Source of the DNA: Oscillospiraceae bacterium
GTDB taxonomy: Bacteria > Bacillota_A > Clostridia > Oscillospirales > Ruminococcaceae
Direction: 5' to 3'
NCBI GenBank assembly: GCA_017523995.1
Contig: JAFWUX010000185.1
Span: 1 to 11,425 of the forward strand
Length of the DNA: 11,425 bases
The notes beneath the pieces were generated by a model. The model was not told the origin of the DNA. It did not search any database and worked only from the letters and a program-made list of their open reading frames with translations. Below are positions 1,373-11,425 of this stretch, in pieces. Both the position numbers and the translations under genes were made by a program. The stretch's first letter is position 1; every line of letters begins with the position of its first letter.

Positions 1373-3886
1373 TCAGAACTCTTTGATGAGCTTGACAACG
1401 TACTTCAGAATCAGTGTGACATCCTCGCTGTCAGGCTGACCGTTCTTGTTGGTGTCAGCGTTCTTCTGACCCTGCGCGGTAACCACTGCCTTCTGATCCT
1501 CTGCAACGAAGCGTGCGAGCAGAACTGCGTCAGAGACATCGACCTTGCCGCTCTCGTTGACATCACCGAGGAACAGCTTGCCTTCCGGCTGCGTCTCTGC
1601 GGCTGTGGTTGTGGTCTCGGCAGCGGTGGTAGTGGTCTCTGCAACGGTTGTGGTGGCCTCTGCAACGGTTGTGGTGGTCTCTGCGACGGTGGTAGTCGTC
1701 TCCGGTGCCGTTGTGGTGGTCTCCGGTACCGTTGTGGTCTCCTGCGGCTGGACGCTCTGCGCAGCCTCGGTCACAGCAAGCAGATAAACCAGCGGAGAGT
1801 TCCAGTAGATCGTGATCTCGTTGGTGGAATAGCTCTCTGCATTGTCGATGTAGCACTTTGCTGCCGGAGAAGTCTTGCAGTATGCCTTTGCAGCGCTGTC
1901 CTCAAGCGAGGAGTTGACGCCGCCGACGAGCATGCCCCGCTGTGCCTTGCCCGCTGCCATGGACGGACGGTGATGCGGTGTCTCCGGTGCGACGGTGCCG
2001 AAGCCGGTGACATAGCAGGTGCCGTTCGGGTTCAGACCGAGCAGGTGATCGAGGACCATGTTTGCAGCATCCTGCTTGCCTGCGAGACCGAGCACAACGC
2101 CTGCGTTTGCGATGGTCATGTTGGAGCCCCATTCATACTTGGTGATCGGGGAGCCGTAAGGGCTTGCGTTGACAGTCTTCTCGAAGGATGCTGCTGCATC
2201 TGCGAGCGCTGCCTTTGCCTTTGCGACCAGCTCGTGATTCGCGTTCTTCATGGTTGCAAGTGCGATGTTGCCGTAATCGCCGACGGTGGACCAATCCAGA
2301 CCGGTGCTGACAGAGGAGACGCCGTTGAGATACTGTGCGTCGCCGGTTGCGCGGTACATCTGGCATGCTGCCCAGTAGCGCTCGTCACGGTCGGTCTTGT
2401 CGCCGTACTCACCGGTGGAGATATCGGACGGATTCTTGAAGATGAAGTTCGGGTTCTGCTTCAGGAAGTCCCATGCCTTCTTTGCTGCATTGAGGCACTT
2501 CTCTGCGAAGGTCGCGTCAACGGACTTGTAGAACTCGGCAGCCATTGCCATCGAAGCGCAGAAGTCTGCAGTTGCGGTGGTGGAGATCGGGGTGACGATC
2601 AGCGGCTTGGTCTCTGCAGTCGGTGCGACATAACCCGGGAAGGTTGCGCAGGTGACCTTGTGATACACGCCGCCGTTTGCAGCCTGCATCTTGAGCATCC
2701 ACTCGAGCTCATAGCGGGTTTCATCGAGGATATCCGGCACGCCGTTGCCGCTCTCCGGAATGCCGACCTTATCGCTGAACAGCGACGGATTTGCCTGATA
2801 TGCGTAGAGCAGATCCGCAACAGCCTTTGCGCCTGCAACGGTGTATCTGCCGTAGTCGCCGGCATCGTGCCAGCCGCCGGAAACGTCGATCTTATCGCTC
2901 GTGCCGTAAACGGTTGCCATATCGGCGTGGCATGCCTTGTGACCGAAGTCTGCATCCTTGACCTCGCAGCCGCAGCGCTGCAGATAGAACATCTTGACAG
3001 CCTCATCGGTGAGCTTTGCATACGGATTGTCTGCAATCTCGAAGGTGTAGGACTGATCCAGACTGCCGCAGGTGATGTAATACTTGCCTGCCTTGGTCAC
3101 AGTGGAGAAATCTGCAACGCGGTCGGTCTCATCTGCGCTGCTGTTGCTGACAGCCGCGCCGAGCGTGCCGGTGTAGACAACTTCCTTGGTATCTGCATTG
3201 ACAACCTTGAACTCATTGCCGCCGTCCTTGCGGACAACTGCAGTCTTCTTATCGTTGGTGCGGTAGCCGATCTGGTTGGTGAGGATCGGGGACTGATACG
3301 GACCGACAGAGCTGTAATCGACCTTGCTGTCATCGACGAGCTCGAGCGAGACATTATCGAGATAGATCGTGTGTGCGCCGAGATCCGGATCGGTCTTCTG
3401 CTTGCCGCAGTTGAAGCAGAACTTTGTCATGATGTCTGTCTCCTCTTCCATCGTGAAGTCATAATCCACGACGGTCGGCTCGGTTCCGACATTCATGCCC
3501 TTCCATGTATATGCCTGATAGGTGCCGCCGTTCTGCTGGATCATGCCTTCCACATAGCGCGGAACAGAGCTGGAGATTTCATAGTGCAGATGATACACGC
3601 CGTTCTGATACAGCGGGACGATGTCATAGAACATCTGAACTGCGTAGTTCAGGGTGCCGACGCTGGAGATCTTCAGTGCGAGCTTGCCGTTCTCGGTGGT
3701 GAGTGAAGCAGCACCGCCGCTCTCCTTATAGATGCCCCAGTCCTTTGTACCGGTCTCAAACGTCGAGTTGGAGATCAGGTTTGCAGCTGCAAAGCCGGTA
3801 ACCGGTGCCATCGACTGTGCGGTGCCCGCGAGAAGTGTGACTGCTGCGAGTGCAGAAAGCAGTCTGAGTCTGAATTTTCTGTTCAT
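1373..3886 (-). CDS. Secreted dockerin-bearing GH9 cellulase (CBM4-Ig-GH9-Doc)
   Basis: An 837-residue cellulosomal beta-1,4-glucanase. Modules in order: signal peptide (about 1-34; basic MNRKFRLR, hydrophobic core, cut near GFAA); a CBM4/9-like jelly roll (about 35-185, ending LDNVSLELV); an Ig-like N-terminal GH9 domain (about 195-285, starting with ILTNQIGY); the GH9 catalytic domain (about 288-708); a Thr-rich linker (716-765); a type-I dockerin (773-834). GH9 landmarks: GGWHDAGDYGRY with catalytic base candidates D341 and D344, HHRP at 638-641, and DNAESYSTNE giving D681 and the general acid E690. The dockerin has two calcium loops, D775-D786 and D811-D822. The start at 3886 has GGGAGG 8-9 bases upstream and yields the signal peptide; the same frame stays open far upstream, but that part is non-coding. 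The CBM4-Ig-GH9 order resembles clostridial CbhA/CelK, which are cellobiohydrolases; exo or endo action is not decided here. Confidence 0.95.
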   Translation of the reverse strand: MNRKFRLRLLSALAAVTLLAGTAQSMAPVTGFAAANLISNSTFETGTKDWGIYKESGGAASLTTENGKLALKISSVGTLNYAVQMFYDIVPLYQNGVYHLHYEISSSVPRYVEGMIQQNGGTYQAYTWKGMNVGTEPTVVDYDFTMEEETDIMTKFCFNCGKQKTDPDLGAHTIYLDNVSLELVDDSKVDYSSVGPYQSPILTNQIGYRTNDKKTAVVRKDGGNEFKVVNADTKEVVYTGTLGAAVSNSSADETDRVADFSTVTKAGKYYITCGSLDQSYTFEIADNPYAKLTDEAVKMFYLQRCGCEVKDADFGHKACHADMATVYGTSDKIDVSGGWHDAGDYGRYTVAGAKAVADLLYAYQANPSLFSDKVGIPESGNGVPDILDETRYELEWMLKMQAANGGVYHKVTCATFPGYVAPTAETKPLIVTPISTTATADFCASMAMAAEFYKSVDATFAEKCLNAAKKAWDFLKQNPNFIFKNPSDISTGEYGDKTDRDERYWAACQMYRATGDAQYLNGVSSVSTGLDWSTVGDYGNIALATMKNANHELVAKAKAALADAAASFEKTVNASPYGSPITKYEWGSNMTIANAGVVLGLAGKQDAANMVLDHLLGLNPNGTCYVTGFGTVAPETPHHRPSMAAGKAQRGMLVGGVNSSLEDSAAKAYCKTSPAAKCYIDNAESYSTNEITIYWNSPLVYLLAVTEAAQSVQPQETTTVPETTTTAPETTTTVAETTTTVAEATTTVAETTTTAAETTTTAAETQPEGKLFLGDVNESGKVDVSDAVLLARFVAEDQKAVVTAQGQKNADTNKNGQPDSEDVTLILKYVVKLIKEF
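1592..1741 (-). repeat. 21-bp imperfect tandem repeat encoding the GH9 Thr linker
   Basis: About seven units encode ETTTTVA or ETTTTAA variants (residues 716-765) between the GH9 domain and the dockerin. The period is 7 codons. Such linkers are usually flexible, protease-resistant and O-glycosylated. The near-identical units are liable to change length by slippage or recombination. Confidence 0.85.
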
Positions 3887-3936
3887 GTGTTTTTCCTCCC
3901 AGTTTTTCATGTGCGATACATAGAATGACGAAGCCG

Positions 3937-4007
3937 ACGGTCCCCTCTCGACCGTTCCCGTTCTGCGCACAGTGCGTGATCTCGGATGTGCTGTATCATG
4001 GCACATC
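3937..4007 (-). other. Stem-loop-rich 5' leader of the cellulase mRNA
   Basis: Three perfect inverted repeats lie in the roughly 185-base leader: ACGGTC/GACCGT (3937-3942 and 3950-3955), CGCAC/GTGCG (3966-3970 and 3972-3976), and GATGTGC/GCACATC (3985-3991 and 4001-4007). None has a T-run, so they are not terminators. They could stabilise the message or bind a regulator. No known riboswitch was recognised. Confidence 0.4.
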
Positions 4008-4073
4008 GCCGCCTGTACGCAGTCCGGGAGAACAGCTTCGCAAACACAGGCGCTCCGCAGCCCCTGCAATTTC

Positions 4074-4102
4074 ATTATAATAGATTGACAAATAAAACGG
4101 AA
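4074..4102 (-). promoter_or_regulatory. Likely promoter of the GH9 cellulase
   Basis: On the minus strand a perfect TATAAT lies at 4074-4079. The hexamer 17 bases upstream (TTCCGT, 4097-4102) is a poor -35, as expected for a promoter needing an activator. It sits back to back with, and its -35 region overlaps, the regulator promoter at 4085-4113. Confidence 0.5.
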
Positions 4103-4113
4103 TAGTATATAAT
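4085..4113 (+). promoter_or_regulatory. Perfect-consensus sigma-A promoter of the AraC-type regulator
   Basis: TTGACA (4085-4090), a 17-base spacer and TATAAT (4108-4113) match the consensus exactly. The start point would be near 4120, about 40 bases before the regulator's ATG. Confidence 0.85.
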
Positions 4114-4124
4114 GCATATTATAT
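4107..4124. promoter_or_regulatory. Palindrome covering the regulator -10 box and start point
   Basis: ATATAAT (4107-4113) and ATTATAT (4118-4124) form a perfect inverted repeat around GCAT. Its left arm contains the -10 box. A protein bound here would block the regulator's own promoter, so it is a candidate operator. AT-rich palindromes also arise by chance around -10 boxes, and AraC proteins more often use direct repeats. Confidence 0.4.
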
Positions 4125-4162
4125 GATACATTGTGCAAATCTTTACTAAAAGGAGTATAAAA

Positions 4163-4945
4163 ATGATTCTTCATAACGTTGGGTATAATCACAGGCACGA
4201 TGCGGACTTTCAGGTCACCCGTCCAGAGGGCAGCGGCGATCATCTGCTGCTGATTCTCAAGACCGAATCTATCTTCACACTGAACGGCGAGGACGTCACG
4301 CTGCCCGCCAATACATTCTTTCTGTTTCCCGAGGGCATGCCGCAGTTTTACCGTGCCGTACCGCAGCATTCCTTTGCAAATGACTGGATTCACTTTTCCT
4401 TTGAAGATCCCGAGCCCGATTGGTTCCGCGCAAAATCGGTGCCCGTCGGGGTGCCGGTGCAGCTCCGCAGCACGGAGTTTTTCAGCTTCTGCATCAAGGC
4501 AATCGCAGATGAAAACAGCTCCGAGCATCTGCACAAGGCGGATTCGATCTCGCATTACTTCTGGCTGCTCTGCAACAAGGTCAGCGAGCAGGTGCATGAG
4601 CAGTCGCATCTGCAGCTCAGCTCGCGCTATGAGATGATGCTGATTATCCGGAACAAAATCTACACCGCGCCCTATCTCAACTGGTCGATCGACTGGGCTG
4701 CGCATGAAACCTGCATGAGCCGCTCGTCCTTCCAGCACCACTATAAGGAGCAGTTCGGCGTCACCTTCATTCAGGATCTCATCGAGAGCCGCGTCTCCCG
4801 CGCGCGCATGCTGCTCAGCACAACGAATATGTCGATTCAGGATATCGCCGTGCAGTGCGGATATCGCAGCTACGAGCATTTCGCGCGGCAGTTCCGCTCG
4901 CAGTGCGGCATTGCCCCCGGCGATTACCGCAGAAAGACACAGTGA
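4163..4945 (+). CDS. AraC/XylS-family transcriptional regulator
   Basis: 260 residues, a typical length for one-component sugar-responsive AraC regulators. The N-terminal half (about 1-140) looks like the cupin ligand-binding domain (HRHDADFQVTRPEG, then LNGEDVTLPANTFFLFPEG). The C-terminal third (about 165-257) holds two helix-turn-helix motifs: WSIDWAAHETCMSRSSFQHHY with YKEQFG, and SIQDIAVQCGYRSYEHFARQ followed by FRSQCGIAPGDYRR, the family signature. AGGAG ends 7 bases before the ATG, which settles the start over an upstream in-frame ATG at 4133. It is transcribed divergently from the GH9 cellulase across 276 bases, so it most likely controls the cellulase and perhaps itself. The ligand cannot be read from the sequence; a cello-, xylo- or arabino-saccharide is an inference from context. 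Confidence 0.92.
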   Translation: MILHNVGYNHRHDADFQVTRPEGSGDHLLLILKTESIFTLNGEDVTLPANTFFLFPEGMPQFYRAVPQHSFANDWIHFSFEDPEPDWFRAKSVPVGVPVQLRSTEFFSFCIKAIADENSSEHLHKADSISHYFWLLCNKVSEQVHEQSHLQLSSRYEMMLIIRNKIYTAPYLNWSIDWAAHETCMSRSSFQHHYKEQFGVTFIQDLIESRVSRARMLLSTTNMSIQDIAVQCGYRSYEHFARQFRSQCGIAPGDYRRKTQ

Positions 4946-4992
4946 GCCGGAGACTTGCATTTTCACGATGTTTGTGGTATGATTGTATTGCA

Positions 4993-5034
4993 CGGCTGCA
5001 GAAGGATTCTGCAAAAGATCATCTCCCGCAGCCG
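4993..5034. other. Inverted repeats downstream of the regulator gene
   Basis: CGGCTGC (4993-4999) can pair with GCAGCCG (5028-5034), and alternatively GCAGAA (4998-5003) with TTCTGC (5007-5012). No T-run follows, so it is at best a weak terminator for the regulator gene. It lies ahead of the putative promoter of the next gene. Confidence 0.3.
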
Positions 5035-6319: not shown

Positions 6320-6690
6320 GGAGTTTCGCTCTACTGCGCAATGGTTTGCAAGCAAACCATGAGCGACAAGCGGCGCCGCCTCTGGACTTTTATTCCGGCT
6401 CTCCGGCAGCGTGCTTGATATTTACGGCACAATACGTAACCGGAATGCTTTAGAATAAGGAGCCGCACACGGCGCGGTGAAAAAGTTTGATCAAAACTTT
6501 CGATATGTGGTGCGACACAAGCGAAGCCGCGCCAATCAACGTTGATTGAAGCGGCTTTCTGCCATGCACACATAAAAACGGGGTCTGGGGATAATATCCC
6601 CAGCGGGGAGGTTGGGTGAGTTTGCTTTGCAAACTCATAACGCAGTGTGGCGAGATAGCCCCCATTACAAATCCATCGGCGATACTGCTG
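6320..6690 (+). repeat. Composite palindromic repeat, unit B1
   Basis: This is the first part of a 706-base gap without a gene (6314-7019). It contains, in order: TTTCGCTC and GAGCGACAAG enclosing an inner palindrome at 6341-6360 (arms ATGGTTTGC and GCAAACCAT); AAAAAGTTTGATC and AAAACTTTC at 6480-6501; a hairpin at 6524-6557 (AAGCCGC/GCGGCTT, enclosing AATCAAC/GTTGATT); the GGGGTCTGGGG module with its palindrome at 6585-6603; a hairpin at 6617-6637 (TGAGTTTGC/GCAAACTCA) replacing the GGGGGC/GCCCCC hairpin of unit B2; and a 22-base stretch at 6658-6679 repeated exactly at 6979-7000. Small frames across it are artefacts of the palindromes. Confidence 0.8.
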
Positions 6691-7007
6691 AAAAGATGTA
6701 TCCGCTCCGCGGATGCTATTTTAGAATGGGCGCCTCTATCGCAGGCGCCCAAGCCCCCGAGCTCTTGATATGCAAAGGGAGTTTCGCTCGTTGTGACGAG
6801 CGACAAGGGCTCTGCCCTTGACCCGCAAACTTTTGAAAAAGTTTGATCAAAACTTTCGTCTTGGATGAGCACATGTAAGAAAGCCACTCCTATTTACGAA
6901 AACAGGAGCAGCTTACTTTCATCCATACATAAACATGGGGTCTGGGGATAATATCCCCAGCGGGGGCTTGGGGGCAGCGCCCCCATTACAAATCCATCGG
7001 AGATACC
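6691..7007 (+). repeat. Composite palindromic repeat, unit B2, running into the tcdA leader
   Basis: Second unit of the gene-free stretch. In order: ATCCGC/GCGGAT (6700-6714); GGGCGCCT/AGGCGCCC (6728-6750); TCGCTCG/CGAGCGA (6784-6803); CAAGGGC/GCCCTTG (6804-6820); CAAACTTTT/AAAAGTTTG (6826-6845), overlapping AAAGTTT/AAACTTT (6838-6856); a hairpin at 6875-6916; the palindrome CTGGGGATA/TATCCCCAG (6942-6960); and GGGGGC/GCCCCC (6970-6984). The tail reaches to within about 5 bases of the tcdA ribosome binding site, so the tcdA 5' leader is made of repeat sequence. Confidence 0.8.
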
Positions 7008-7019
7008 TATGGAGGAACT

Positions 7020-7748
7020 ATGTTAGATCAATTTGCGAGAACGGCGCTGTTGTTCGGCGCTGATGCTATGAACAAACTCCGCGGCAGCCGCGTTGCCGTA
7101 TTCGGCGTCGGCGGTGTCGGCGGATATGCCGTGGAAGCGCTTGGGCGCAGCGGCATCGGAACCCTCGATCTCATCGACAGCGACACGGTCAGCCTGACCA
7201 ATCTCAACCGGCAGATTATCGCGCTGCACAGCACTGTCGGGCAGTACAAGGTCGATGTCGCCGCGGCACGCCTGCGCGATATCAACCCCGATATCACCGT
7301 CCACGCGCACCGCTGCTTCTATCTGCCCGAGACCGCCGACCAGTTCGACTTCACGCAGTATGACTATGTGATCGACGCAATTGACACCGTCAAAGGCAAA
7401 ATCGAAATCATCATGCGCGCAAAAGAAGCCGGCGTCCCCGTGATCTCCAGCATGGGCGCCGGCAACAAGCTCGATCCTTCCGCGCTGCGGCTGACCGATA
7501 TCTATCAGACGAAGGTGTGCCCGCTCGCGCGCGTCATGCGCTATGAACTGCGCAAGCGCGGCGTCAAGGCGCTCAAGGTGGTGTATTCCGAGGAGCTGCC
7601 TGTCGAGACCGATCCGGCGCTGACTGCAGAATGCCTTGCGGAGGAGGGCGGCGTCCGGCGGAATGTGCCCGGCTCGAATGCGTTTGTCCCCTCGGCTGCC
7701 GGTCTGCTGATCGCGAGCGCGGTTATTCGGGATCTGGCTGGGCGCTGA
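7020..7748 (+). CDS. tcdA: tRNA threonylcarbamoyladenosine dehydratase (ThiF/E1-like)
   Basis: 242 residues. TcdA uses ATP to cyclise t6A at position 37 of ANN-decoding tRNAs into the hydantoin form ct6A, in the cytosol. The E1-like ATP-binding fold is clear: GVGGVGG (G29-G35), then LIDSDTVSLTNLNRQ with D53 and R64-Q65, then K77 and D119-x-x-D122 in YVIDAIDTVKGK. The C-terminal half has MGAGNKLDP and the ICP-like TKVCPLARVMRYELRKRG typical of TcdA rather than MoeB or ThiF. It lacks the paired CxxC zinc motifs of MoeB/ThiF. GGAGG (7011-7015) lies 4 bases before the ATG. It stands alone on this strand, its leader is composed of repeat sequence, and its 3' end overlaps pnuC tail to tail. Confidence 0.93.
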   Translation: MLDQFARTALLFGADAMNKLRGSRVAVFGVGGVGGYAVEALGRSGIGTLDLIDSDTVSLTNLNRQIIALHSTVGQYKVDVAAARLRDINPDITVHAHRCFYLPETADQFDFTQYDYVIDAIDTVKGKIEIIMRAKEAGVPVISSMGAGNKLDPSALRLTDIYQTKVCPLARVMRYELRKRGVKALKVVYSEELPVETDPALTAECLAEEGGVRRNVPGSNAFVPSAAGLLIASAVIRDLAGR

Positions 7749-8430
7749 GCTGCGTTCCGGCACGGCGCCGCCAGCTGATAAACGCATAGGCATCGTTGAC
7801 GAGAAACATCGCAAAGCACGCGGTCATCGGGATGCAGGACGCATCCTGCCGCGCCGCAAGAATCCACAGCACAATCAGCACCAGATCGTTCGTGGCATAG
7901 GCGAGCGCATAGTAGGGCGAACGGCATGCCGTCAGATAGGCGGCGAGAAAGCTCGTTGTGATGGAGACAATGCTGACCGGCAGATTCGCCGTATGCAGCA
8001 GCGCGAGCATCCAGCCGAAGCCTGCGGTCGCTGCCGCTGTCAGTACAAGCATCCAGACAATCAGTTTCACAGAAAGCTTCTGCCGGATCGTCACGATCCG
8101 GCTTTTTCCGTATGGATTTTTCAGCCATGTCCAGAGCGACACCGCCGCCATCGGCATCGTCATGCCGAGATAGGTCAGCATTTCGCCGTAATACCGGAAA
8201 AAGAACGAGATGACGCCGTAAAACAGCGAGAACACAATCGTCAGGAGCTGCCCGTACGGATGCCCCTTCGCCATGTAGATCAGCGCGGTGACGCCGATCA
8301 GTGAGGCGATCAGCGAGAGCACGCCTGCGCCGCTGAACAGCAGAAAGGACGCCGCAACAATCAGGACGGAGCCGCCCCAGATCACATAATCCAGCCTGTT
8401 CAGCAGCCGGAACGGATTATCAAAATGCAT
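7723..8430 (-). CDS. pnuC: PnuC-family nicotinamide riboside (vitamin) transporter
   Basis: 235 residues, almost entirely membrane-embedded with about seven hydrophobic helices. PnuC proteins are facilitated carriers, usually of nicotinamide riboside for NAD salvage; relatives take riboflavin (PnuX) or thiamine (PnuT). Family features seen: YGVISFFFRYYGEMLTYLGM (71-90), the Trp-rich W100-T-W102-LKNPYG after it, ATNDLVLIVLWILA (179-192), and the C-terminal VNDAYAFISWRRR (211-223). The start at 8430 has GGAGGG 6 bases upstream; an in-frame start at 8475 would lie inside the leader terminator. The final 26 bases overlap the end of tcdA. The leader carries a candidate transcription attenuator. 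The vitamin carried is inferred from the family; the substrate cannot be fixed without the leader ligand. Confidence 0.9.
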   Translation of the reverse strand: MHFDNPFRLLNRLDYVIWGGSVLIVAASFLLFSGAGVLSLIASLIGVTALIYMAKGHPYGQLLTIVFSLFYGVISFFFRYYGEMLTYLGMTMPMAAVSLWTWLKNPYGKSRIVTIRQKLSVKLIVWMLVLTAAATAGFGWMLALLHTANLPVSIVSITTSFLAAYLTACRSPYYALAYATNDLVLIVLWILAARQDASCIPMTACFAMFLVNDAYAFISWRRRAGTQLSAQPDPE

Positions 8431-8445
8431 TGTTTTCCCTCCAAA

Positions 8446-8500
8446 CAAAAAAGCACCCGTCAATCCGTCTTCCAAGACCTAACGACGAATTGCGAATGCT
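8446..8500 (-). terminator. Intrinsic terminator within the pnuC 5' leader
   Basis: On the minus strand AGCATTCG then CAATTCGTC (8500-8484) pairs with GACGGATTG, a bulged A, then CGGGTGCT (8469-8452). That gives 17 pairs including a few G-U, followed directly by a run of six T (8452-8447). It lies between the promoter and the ribosome binding site, so it would stop transcription before pnuC. Confidence 0.7.
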
Positions 8501-8535
8501 CACTGCCTACCCGGTGGCAGGCGATATTGACTTCT
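8452..8535 (-). promoter_or_regulatory. pnuC leader: candidate riboswitch or attenuator of unrecognised class
   Basis: Besides the terminator, the leader can form an alternative fold. GTCAAT (minus strand 8531-8526) pairs with ATTGAC (8464-8459), enclosing a 7-bp hairpin at 8505-8522 with a 4-base loop and a small hairpin at 8467-8478. The closing ATTGAC and the small hairpin use bases of the terminator's 3' arm, so the two folds exclude each other. I compared it by eye with TPP, FMN, preQ1, NAD+-I, NAD+-II and guanidine consensus features and saw no match. The ligand is unknown; a leader peptide or protein-controlled attenuator is also possible. Confidence 0.5.
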
Positions 8536-8540
8536 CTGAT

Positions 8541-8569
8541 ATCATATCACATTCCGGCAAATTTGTCAA
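8541..8569 (-). promoter_or_regulatory. pnuC promoter
   Basis: TTGACA (8564-8569) and TATGAT (8541-8546) on the minus strand are exactly 17 bases apart, one mismatch from consensus. Transcription would start near 8534, giving a leader of about 104 bases before the pnuC start. Confidence 0.85.
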
Positions 8570-8627
8570 GTTCGGGAATCAAGGATTGGGGGTAGCTGAG
8601 ACAAGGTGTTTCCTAATTAAAAGAGGA

Positions 8628-8785
8628 ATCCGCTTCGCGGATACGATTTGGAATGGTCGCCTCTATCGCAGGCGCCCAAGCCCGCGAGCTCTTGATACGC
8701 AAAGGGGCGTTTCGATGCCTGCGGGCATCGACGAGGGCTCTGCCCTCGACCCGCAAACTTTTGAAAAAGTTTGATCAAAACTTTT
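8628..8785 (+). repeat. Composite palindromic repeat, copy C (front half of the unit)
   Basis: Same order as 6700-6856: ATCCGC/GCGGAT (8628-8642), GGTCGCCT/AGGCGCCC with the identical CTATCGC loop (8655-8677), a hairpin TCGATGCC/GGCATCGA (8712-8731), CGAGGGC/GCCCTCG (8732-8748), and the AAACTTTT...AAAAAGTTTGATC...AAAACTTT block (8754-8785). The back half (hairpin plus GGGGTCTGGGG module) is missing. It forms the main part of the 568-base gap 8431-8998. Small frames over it are not genes. Confidence 0.8.
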
Positions 8786-8885
8786 ATATTGACATCGCCG
8801 GAAACGAAATAATTGATCTTCGATAAGCCTCTCCCCTTGTATCGCCGCCTCATAATCACACGCTTTCTGATTCATCTGCAAACGC
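8786..8885. other. Intergenic stretch without recognisable features
   Basis: Between repeat copy C and the xylanase terminator I see no gene, promoter or strong repeat. Confidence 0.6.
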
Positions 8886-8998: not shown

Positions 8999-11425
8999 TC
9001 AGAACGAAGTGATAATCTTGGCGACGTACTTGAGAATGAGGATGACGTCGTCCTTATCAGGTGTGCCGTTCTTGTTGGTATCTGCATTCAGCTTGCCGAC
9101 GCTGCTGATTCTCACAGAGGAATCCTCAGCAACGAGTCTTGCGAGCATAACTGCATCCGAGACATCAACCTTGCCGCTCTCATTGACGTCGCCGACGAGC
9201 GTAGCCTTGACAACGTCCGGAGCCTTGGTGGTTGTAGTTGTGGTAACCGGAGCGGTGGTGGTTGTTGTGGTAGTAGTAGTAGTAACAGTGGTGTTGGTAG
9301 TGGTGGTAGTGGTTGTGGTGGTTGTAGTGGTGTTGCCGCCGACTTCAGTCGGGTTCGGTGCCGGATACTTGCTGGTCAGACCGCAGACGGTGCTGTAGAT
9401 CGGCTTCGGATTCGGAGTGCCTCTGCCGGTCCAGAGAAGCGGAGACTGGCTGCCTCTCCAGCTGTGATCATCGGAAACGCCCCAAAGGGTAACGGAAGAA
9501 ATCTTGTCAGCGTGCTTCAGAATGACACTGTAGATATCCTCATATGCCTTGTTCCACTGGCTGTCGCCGAGATCCTTGGTGATATCGAGCTCAGTGACCT
9601 GAACATCGAGACCGAGGCCGCTGAATGCAAGGATTGCATCCTCGTAGGTCTTTGCATCCGGATACTTGTCGCTGAGGTGGGACTGCATGCCGATACCGTC
9701 GATGTACGGACCTTCTGCAAGGATTGCCTTTGCCATGTTGACGAGATCCTGGCACTTGTCAGGCATGTACTCGTTGTAATCGTTCATGTAGAGCTTGCAG
9801 CCTGCCGGAGCATACTGTCTTGCATACTTGAACGCCTTGATGATGAACTCATTGTTGTTTTCGCCGTAAACCTTTGCCCAGTCGGAACCGCCGCTGCCGT
9901 AGGAGTCGCCGGGTCTCTGGTAATGCTCCTTCTTACGGAGTCCGCCGCCGTCATTGAGGAACAGCTCGTTGCAGACGTCATAAGCATAGAGGTCGAGCTT
10001 CGGATAATTCTTCTTGATCAGATCGAAGGTCTGCTTGATCATTGATTCGAGACGCTTATCCATTTCCGCCTTGGAAACGAATGCGCCGTTTCTGTTAAAG
10101 CCTTCACGGAAGAACCATGTCGGAGTCTGGGAATACCATACAAACGTATGACCGCGGACGCCGATGCCGTTCTGCTCACAGAACTTGAGAACGTTTGCAG
10201 CCTGATTCAGGTTGACCTGAACGGAACCGGTCTGACGGCTCGCATTCTCATCAAGAATGTTATCCGGCTTCATCTCATTCTCGAGGGTGATCGAGTTGTA
10301 GTGCTGCTTGAGGTAGTTGGAAAGACCGCCGAGGTCAGATGCGGTCAGGCAGGTACCGGTGCGGAAGTACGGTCCGAAGACATCGCGGAAGTTTTTGCCG
10401 CCCGGGGTATACGGATAAGAACCGCTGCCGCTGGAAGTGCCCGGAGTGGTCGGAGTTGTGGTGCCCGGATCGGAGCTCGAAGAACCGCCGCCGGAAACCT
10501 TTGCGCCGCTCAGGTCGATCTTTGCTGCAGTGCCGCCCTTTGCAGAGGAGATGCTGTCGAAGTAGAAATCAGGCGTGCTGCCTTCGGTCTCAATGTAAAG
10601 CAGGAGATTGGAAGCGCCGGAAGGAATCGTGTAGTTGGTGCTGCCGATCTTTGCCCATTCGCCCTTGCTTGCGGTCACGCTGCCGATTTCATCGTAGTTC
10701 TTGGTGCCGCCTGCATCCTCATATTCGAGGGAGAGCTTGAACTTTGTGGAGCTCTCGGAGTTCTGCATCACAGCGCCGTTGAAGCTGTAGGACTGACCCG
10801 GAATATAGGTGCTGGTGCTCAGGCTGAGACCTGCGCCGTTCCAATCCTGGCTTCTGCTGGTGACTGCCAGAGAGCCCTTGCCCTCTGCGTAGTTATTGGT
10901 ATCCAGCGAGACGGTTGCGCTGCCGCGCGGGCCCCAGTCGCCCTTGCTGGAATCGAAATCGTTGGAGAAGAACTTGCCGTCGGACTCTGCCGGCGTGGAA
11001 GTACCCGGATCAGAAGTGCCCGGATCAATCTGACCCTTCTTGCTCGGGTCGGTGTAGACATCGAGCTCGGTGACGTCTGCGACGCCGCTGCTCTGCCAGC
11101 CTTCAGCATTCAGTGCGACCTCATAGAGGTTGCCGATGCCCCAGCCCTGCTGTGCCCATGCCTTGAAGTGATCGGAAACGGTGATGTGACCGGAAGTTCT
11201 CTTGGACTGACGGACACTGAAATACTGCTTAAAGGTGGAGCTTCCGCCGTGGATATCCGGACCGGTGTGATCGAGCTGGAAGATCTTGTACTGTGCGCCG
11301 TCAATCGTGACAGTCTTGCTGTTGCCGCTCGGGCACCAGTCTTTCCAGTCTTCGATGATGTAGTACTCGACGAGCGGCGGATTGCCTGCTGCGCCTCTGT
11401 TCTCGAACCAGCCGTAAACGCACAG
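8999..11425 (-). CDS. Cellulosomal xylanase GH11-CBM22-GH10-dockerin (5' partial)
   Basis: The frame runs through the window edge; 808 residues are visible and the signal peptide and N-terminal part of GH11 are missing. Modules by visible residue: GH11 (1-118), nucleophile E20 in PLVEYYIIED and acid/base E108 in ALNAEGWQSSG; a DPGTS linker; CBM22 (about 150-305; FFSNDFDSSKGDWGPRGS to PDFYFDSIS); a Ser/Gly/Pro linker; GH10 (about 345-685), acid/base E487 in YDVCNELF and nucleophile E612 in VQVTELDI, with ITLENEMKPDN and GHTFVWYSQTP; a poly-Thr linker (699-733); a dockerin (745-804) with calcium loops GDVNESGKVDVSD and NADTNKNGTPDKDD. Both catalytic sites look intact. It cuts beta-1,4-xylan with two xylanase folds on one chain. 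Its dockerin is nearly the same as that of the GH9 cellulase. A start at an internal GTG near 10771 would be wrong: CBM22 and GH11 continue in frame above it. Confidence 0.95.
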   Translation of the reverse strand: MCVYGWFENRGAAGNPPLVEYYIIEDWKDWCPSGNSKTVTIDGAQYKIFQLDHTGPDIHGGSSTFKQYFSVRQSKRTSGHITVSDHFKAWAQQGWGIGNLYEVALNAEGWQSSGVADVTELDVYTDPSKKGQIDPGTSDPGTSTPAESDGKFFSNDFDSSKGDWGPRGSATVSLDTNNYAEGKGSLAVTSRSQDWNGAGLSLSTSTYIPGQSYSFNGAVMQNSESSTKFKLSLEYEDAGGTKNYDEIGSVTASKGEWAKIGSTNYTIPSGASNLLLYIETEGSTPDFYFDSISSAKGGTAAKIDLSGAKVSGGGSSSSDPGTTTPTTPGTSSGSGSYPYTPGGKNFRDVFGPYFRTGTCLTASDLGGLSNYLKQHYNSITLENEMKPDNILDENASRQTGSVQVNLNQAANVLKFCEQNGIGVRGHTFVWYSQTPTWFFREGFNRNGAFVSKAEMDKRLESMIKQTFDLIKKNYPKLDLYAYDVCNELFLNDGGGLRKKEHYQRPGDSYGSGGSDWAKVYGENNNEFIIKAFKYARQYAPAGCKLYMNDYNEYMPDKCQDLVNMAKAILAEGPYIDGIGMQSHLSDKYPDAKTYEDAILAFSGLGLDVQVTELDITKDLGDSQWNKAYEDIYSVILKHADKISSVTLWGVSDDHSWRGSQSPLLWTGRGTPNPKPIYSTVCGLTSKYPAPNPTEVGGNTTTTTTTTTTTTNTTVTTTTTTTTTTAPVTTTTTTKAPDVVKATLVGDVNESGKVDVSDAVMLARLVAEDSSVRISSVGKLNADTNKNGTPDKDDVILILKYVAKIITSF
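9227..9331 (-). repeat. Poly-threonine-coding low-complexity linker of the xylanase
   Basis: Thirty of 35 residues are Thr (runs of 12, 10 and 6), encoded by mixed ACC, ACT and ACA codons. It joins GH10 to the dockerin. The DNA is a degenerate trinucleotide tract with strong strand asymmetry and may vary in length between strains. Confidence 0.85.

Follow-up and report, generated by a model that had tools for sequence, protein, structure and literature searches.

The leader of a pnuC-like gene in an 11,425-nt stretch of DNA (hereafter the window) is very probably a guanidine-IV riboswitch (GGAM-1/mepA motif) that operates as a transcriptional ON switch, an assignment reached by matching its described features rather than the published alignment. 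The leader fits well into a known riboswitch class, and it stands ahead of a gene family already named for that class. According to the text passages cited here, guanidine-IV RNAs consist of two hairpins joined by a pseudoknot (the 3' hairpin being the terminator) and precede sugE, MATE and PnuC genes, the last of which were named by the discoverers themselves (PMC7736828, PMC12186494); in the portions cited, the published members are ON switches, in which guanidine stabilises a kissing loop and the terminator stem is not fully closed (PMC7736828, PMC11611296). By analogy with these members, guanidine would be the ligand of the present leader and ON its direction. An orphan riboswitch candidate (as which the leader stood in the original prediction) is thereby replaced by a named class, and guanidine, not the vitamins, becomes the first ligand to assay. 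The riboswitch class and its PnuC target were already known; new here are a residue-level prediction for the transporter and a linker hairpin, both predicted from sequence.

All features of the element lie on the minus strand (the original prediction had named no strand), where the leader fold surpasses all of 200 dinucleotide shuffles (z -3.5); the plus strand, when folded, showed nothing out of the ordinary (z -1.0). The near-consensus promoter and the leader of about 104 bases that had been predicted were both borne out: a promoter-like site (8541-8569) carries TTGACA (8569-8564) and TATGAT (8546-8541) around a 17-nt spacer, with 11 of 12 consensus matches and a TG ahead of the second hexamer (a consensus scan of 8300-8800 returned 2 sites against 0.4 expected), and the leader, taken from the transcription start expected near 8534 as far as the ATG at 8430, spans about 104 nt. 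The minimum-energy fold likewise recovered the anticipated 7-bp hairpin (hairpin 1 or P1, 8505-8522, GCCUGCC-ACCG-GGUAGGC), which is followed by a linker (8502-8504) that is short here; in most PnuC relatives the linker is longer and forms a competing hairpin. Hairpin 2 (P2, 8451-8501) is the intrinsic terminator, with a bulged base at 8460, a 14-nt loop (8483-8470) and a U6 tract (8447-8452); its position just before the ribosome binding site (GGAGGG, 8437-8442) and its six T were as described, and the 17 pairs originally counted become 18 in the minimum-energy fold. This 3' hairpin, with its 18 pairs and U6 before the gene, is arranged as in guanidine-IV and is conserved in relatives. The covariance model R1 (described below) places the whole element at 8438-8523 with 79.6 bits, a match by construction, as the window is among the 57 rows of the model. 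The gene that follows (7723-8430, ATG at 8430) encodes a PnuC-like transporter of 235 aa (PF04973, E 2e-28).

Several further features surround the locus. The 3' end of pnuC overlaps a ThiF-family gene (plus strand, 7020-7748) tail to tail over 7723-7748, and two sets of dispersed repeats, 78-93% alike, lie outside the annotated genes (6720-6863 and 8647-8791; 3-62, 6524-6608 and 6881-6965), one copy being placed just upstream of the pnuC promoter. Positions 8999-10771 encode a GH10 xylanase with CBM4/9 and dockerin, and a minus-strand frame (1373-5014) shares repeats with the xylanase gene, including the dockerin-coding end. On account of this dockerin and the shared dockerin-end repeats, the source organism may have a cellulosome.

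For the comparative analysis, a single scan of 84,980 species genomes gave 364 related PnuC loci, the best 80 of which were retained, and a strict-pattern leader was present in 67 of these best 80 loci (65 distinct leaders). The window and 56 of the 65 distinct leaders (57 rows) make up alignment A1, on which the model R1 was trained; the other nine (L012, L015, L028, L037, L045, L049, L055, L057 and L076) were left out by choice as near-copies or for their odd length, and all nine later matched R1. At E <= 0.01 the model finds the motif in all of the 80 PnuC loci but L043, L053 and L074 (77 loci). Within A1, 98.1% of 1337 cells were paired and 15 of 24 pairs changed on both sides (0 of 500 shuffles were as high), and a shift of the partners by one to three columns lowered the pairing to 30-42%. 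The five inner pairs of hairpin 1 were formed in 99.6% of cells, three of them with both-side changes, and 12 of the 16 pairs counted in the two helices of the terminator changed on both sides. Furthermore, 9 of the 17 invariant columns fall within the two loops, and as a plain terminator has no need of conserved loop bases, this pattern points to an aptamer.

The two loops are able to contact each other: the loop of hairpin 1 presents ACC (8515-8513), a possible pairing partner for the GGU (G8479, G8478 and U8477) of the terminator loop. All three pairs are formed in each of the 57 A1 rows (100% of cells) and hardly vary there. In the wider leader set (148 rows, counting those where both strands were recognised by the script) the contact covaries: the first pair is A-U in 122 rows, G-C in 17 and G-U in 5, and it is open in the other 4. 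Because the G-C version is seen ahead of PnuC, MATE, SMR, Nim-like and other genes alike, the change is not limited to one gene family. A third conserved loop base, G8472, sits six bases past G8478 in an invariant column of A1. The same spacing separates G77 from G71 in the Clostridium botulinum RNA and G72 from G66 in that of Lactococcus lactis, going by the positions given in the cited passages (PMC11611296, PMC7736828). Mapped onto the C. botulinum RNA, A8515, C8514, G8478, U8477 and G8472 correspond to its A29, C30, G71, U72 and G77, and the part of the study cited here describes mutations at G71, U72 and G77 as harming the kissing loop and the combination A29G + U72C as restoring it, whereas the double mutant C30G + G71C, expected to restore it as well, did not (PMC11611296). 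For L. lactis, where mutation of four loop positions showed them to be required for binding, G66, U67 and G72 fit G8478, U8477 and G8472 by spacing alone, and the fourth, G62, misses the conserved G8483 by one base at plain spacing from G66 (only the positions given in the cited text being compared; PMC7736828).

The kissing loop also bears on the two mutually exclusive folds that had been proposed for the leader. A competing structure does exist, namely this contact between hairpin 1 and the terminator loop; the alternative closing helix that had been put forward (8526-8531 with 8459-8464) does not hold up. Forcing it yields -25.2 against -36.5 kcal/mol (a cost of 11.3 kcal/mol), and the three nearest relatives (L001, L002 and L003, with PnuCs 89, 74 and 68% identical to that of the window) lack its 5' strand, GTCAAT, in the 43 nt leading to hairpin 1. 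The small hairpin supposed to lie inside it (8467-8478) can be formed on paper, but in L126, L144 and other rows one or two of the four pairs are lost with no compensating change. The covariation alignment of pnuC leaders that the original prediction had suggested bears out the two hairpins, which covary. The cited eLife text sets guanidine-IV apart from switches that exchange overlapping base pairs (PMC11611296). The failure of the closing helix, much weaker than the terminator and not conserved, is what could be said for a plain terminator or attenuator without a ligand, in which the two folds would amount to chance complementarity; we consider this explanation scarcely credible, as a plain terminator does not need the invariant loop bases, both hairpins and the kissing loop covary, and the RNA is conserved across unrelated transporter genes. 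The riboswitch or attenuator logic read from the leader is accordingly retained in the form of a cis-acting riboswitch that acts via its terminator.

The original prediction had recognised no riboswitch class in the leader and had proposed a search with the Rfam covariance models. That search matched no known class above chance: with Rfam 15, the window at E up to 5 and positions 8400-8600 at E up to 10 gave only chance matches below the gathering score, none of them to a riboswitch family, and the same release held no family that matched the motif above chance in five motif-bearing loci (L144, L155, L138, L126 and L084). The claim of no recognisable class is therefore right for Rfam and wrong for the literature, in which guanidine-IV was already in print, and the lack of a matching family in Rfam 15 would explain why the class looked unknown. 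The TPP and FMN families, which we take to be contained in Rfam, were absent from the matches under both of these settings, and in agreement with the earlier reading nothing ties the leader to NAD+, TPP or FMN switches. We regard it as very improbable that the leader senses an NAD+-related compound, thiamine or riboflavin like the leaders of other PnuC-family genes. Its PnuC does score above the cut-off of the nicotinamide riboside transporter model (TIGR01528, 48.9 bits against 42.45), and the cited text describes other Pnu-type genes as driven by NAD+-II, TPP or FMN switches (PMC7749635); against this stand the chance-level Rfam matches, the occurrence of the same RNA before MATE, SugE-type and Nim-like genes, and a PnuC branch that has lost residues typical of other PnuCs (see below).

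The range of downstream genes was obtained by applying R1 to 391 genomes of the class of Massiliimalia massiliensis, in which the motif was found at 78 places in 73 genomes (E <= 0.001; a lower bound, given strict filters and 11 candidates scored per genome). Six places in five further genomes bring the set to 84, of which 80 have a downstream frame picked by script and 4 do not. Pfam assigned the 80 proteins to PnuC (51), MATE (17), PNPOx/Nim-like (4), SMR (3) and other families (5), a tally biased to PnuC as R1 was trained on PnuC leaders. The three SMR proteins have the NCBIfam SugE model as their best match, below its equivalog cut-off. For one of them, the closest plasmid-borne relatives are found in Paraclostridium bifermentans and Enterococcus faecalis (58.5% identity each), and the P. 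bifermentans gene lies behind an Rfam guanidine-I riboswitch (91.8 bits, cut-off 63), so the motif and a known guanidine riboswitch have a target family in common. The leader of the E. faecalis sugE was matched by neither R1 nor any Rfam guanidine family, and in three named plasmid records, these two included, R1 matched none of the sugE leaders. The Nim-like genes, encoding proteins of the pyridoxamine-oxidase fold, follow the motif at L126, L127, L157 and L161; single cases precede genes for Nudix (L154), PPDK (L149), YjjI-like glycyl radical (L163) and YhfC (L158) proteins, and some of these frames may be wrongly picked.

This gene inventory also bears on Gd4v, a guanidine-IV variant that senses an unidentified guanidine-related ligand and to which we think it unlikely that the leader belongs. 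By the account in the cited text, Gd4v is nearly identical in its architecture and its conserved bases, shows enrichment among gut bacteria and controls MATE genes too (PMC9788692), and its extra hairpin in the terminator loop recurs in 4 of the 80 PnuC loci. The same text associates it mostly with transaminase genes and never with sugE (PMC9788692), whereas SugE-type proteins make up 3 of our 80 targets and no aminotransferase family is among the 12 families in the 80 downstream proteins; moreover, the terminator loop of the window is an open 14-nt loop without the extra hairpin in the minimum-energy fold, and the only hairpin possible in it is a competing one of 4 pairs. In the four PnuC leaders concerned (L017:1840-1963, L041:1734-1843, L052:1742-1854 and L059:1902-1994) the additional hairpin (-6 to -13 kcal/mol) is inserted between AGGUC and GAAGA and resembles D2 of Gd4v; these leaders may be intermediates between guanidine-IV and Gd4v.

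Beyond the guanidine-IV core, a genuine antiterminator hairpin, formed between the linker and the 5' arm of the terminator, appears to accompany the kissing loop in many PnuC leaders. Counted over the rows with both terminator arms complete (115 PnuC, 16 MATE, 4 Nim-like, 3 SMR and 9 other, four antisense R1 matches having been removed beforehand), at least five contiguous pairs between the two were possible in 90 of the 115 PnuC rows against 11.5 expected from shuffled linkers, in 4 of the 16 MATE rows against 2.0 expected, and in none of the three SMR rows; as a control, the linker paired equally well with the 3' arm in 18 of the 115 PnuC rows. The linker, the 5' arm and the 3' arm change together at three arm positions: C-G-C becomes U-A-U at position 1 (7 rows), A-U-A/G becomes G-C-G at position 5 (17 rows) and G-C-G becomes A-U-A at position 6 (8 rows). 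When linkers were swapped between rows, the mean stem fell below that of the own linkers (mean 4.61 against 5.16) in all of 500 trials, related rows not being independent. The linker of the window offers only three such pairs with the 5' arm (its hairpin 1 is longer instead), and without a linker hairpin it must rely on the kissing loop. A literature search combining guanidine-IV riboswitch and antiterminator listed no paper devoted to this class, the second discovery paper (Salvail 2020) lying outside the literature covered.

The PnuC-like proteins form the second extension of the known class. In the 391 genomes we counted 103 PnuC-domain matches (a few being fragments of one gene), 46 of them with the motif 99-366 nt ahead of the domain and 57 without it; conversely, no PnuC match follows the motif at 33 of its 78 places. 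In a tree of 99 rows (made by a quick method, with long branches elsewhere in it, and omitting 3 of 51 motif PnuCs that were under 180 aa and 8 of 57 motif-less loci without a sufficient hit) all 48 motif-bearing PnuCs, the window and 11 motif-less proteins fall into one branch (SH-aLRT 99). Columns were compared between 59 members of this branch and 38 other PnuCs (L237, present in the tree, being omitted). The tryptophan pair WxxW of PnuC (W182 and W185 in the structure 4qtn), which presumably contacts nicotinamide riboside, is absent from the window, where A175 and Y178 take its place: the first position is A in 0.95 of the branch and W in 0.76 of the others, the second Y in 1.00 and W in 0.74. 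Similarly, D160 of 4qtn has become S153 (S 0.98 in the branch, D 0.82 in the others), and D182 and D213 have been gained (1.00 and 0.98 in the branch; among the others no single residue exceeds 0.34 there). E83 is common to 4qtn and about half of the other PnuCs, and is invariant only in the motif branch. In the predicted model of the window PnuC (pLDDT 91; best PDB match 4qtn, Foldseek TM 0.80), E83, D182 and D213 all lie inside long helices.

The loss of the aromatic pair together with acids gained in helices is a better fit for a small cation, guanidinium for instance, than for a nucleoside, and, judging from these residues, the transporter ahead of which the leader sits probably handles guanidine rather than vitamin B3. 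This reasoning is supported by the statement, made in the cited part of the NAD+-II paper, that riboswitch class predicts Pnu specificity (PMC7749635). In its full form our reading is more demanding, and we hold it with confidence evenly balanced between yes and no: the PnuC-like proteins behind guanidine-IV would be a separate lineage that has given up vitamin transport and that handles guanidinium through the carboxylates E83, D182 and D213 in place of the aromatic pair, possibly with proton coupling for export, and most of their riboswitches would add a hairpin that works by base-pair exchange. PnuC is described as working by facilitated diffusion, a mode that would not move a cation out of the cell against the membrane potential; that the new aspartates couple transport to protons is our guess. 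PnuC-class guanidine exporters were a speculation of 2020 in the cited text (PMC7736828), and a search for guanidine or guanidinium with PnuC found no paper on guanidine transport by PnuC beyond it. Eleven PnuCs of the branch gave no R1 match in the stretch fetched (L217, L219-L223, L225, L228, L232, L236 and L237). Across the 57 motif-less PnuC loci, R1 returned a remnant at L217 (20.9 bits) and a chance-level match at L231 (12.6 bits, E 0.59), and a search for other riboswitches gave only tRNAs at the gathering threshold; these genes therefore give no contrast in riboswitch class.

Taken together, the observations suggest the following course of events. Without guanidine, the second hairpin would reach its full length and terminate transcription shortly ahead of the ribosome binding site. 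When guanidinium is present, the ACC of hairpin 1 would kiss the GGU of hairpin 2 while RNA polymerase is still on the leader, closure of the outer terminator stem would be blocked, and pnuC would be transcribed; its product, which the other target genes suggest by analogy to be an exporter, would then relieve the guanidine load. Genes of gut Clostridia that are annotated as nicotinamide riboside transporters may thus be guanidine transporters, and the speculation of 2020 on PnuC exporters is turned into a testable prediction at residue level.

Compared with the known systems, the leader shares with guanidine-IV, as far as the cited passages describe it, the two hairpins, the kissing loop with its A-U and C-G identities, the terminator as second hairpin, the G-U-N4-G in the loop and the position ahead of sugE, MATE and PnuC genes; the linker hairpin of most PnuC-type members goes unmentioned in those published descriptions (PMC7736828, PMC11611296, PMC12186494). 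Within our own alignment, the window differs in its longer first hairpin (7 pairs against 5 conserved) and in the absence of the linker hairpin. Gd4v is distinguished in the cited text by the extra terminator hairpin, absent from the window, and by a changed base at D1 (PMC9788692). NAD+-II (the Streptococcus pnuC motif) likewise precedes a gene called pnuC and, in the passages cited, is believed to work through a pseudoknot that involves the ribosome binding site, with no terminator, where the window has a conserved terminator before that site (PMC8632094, PMC7749635). Finally, the window PnuC is predicted to have the same fold as 4qtn, the nicotinamide riboside transporter PnuC of Neisseria mucosa, from which it differs in sequence (21% identity), in the replacement of W182 and W185 and in the two gained aspartates.
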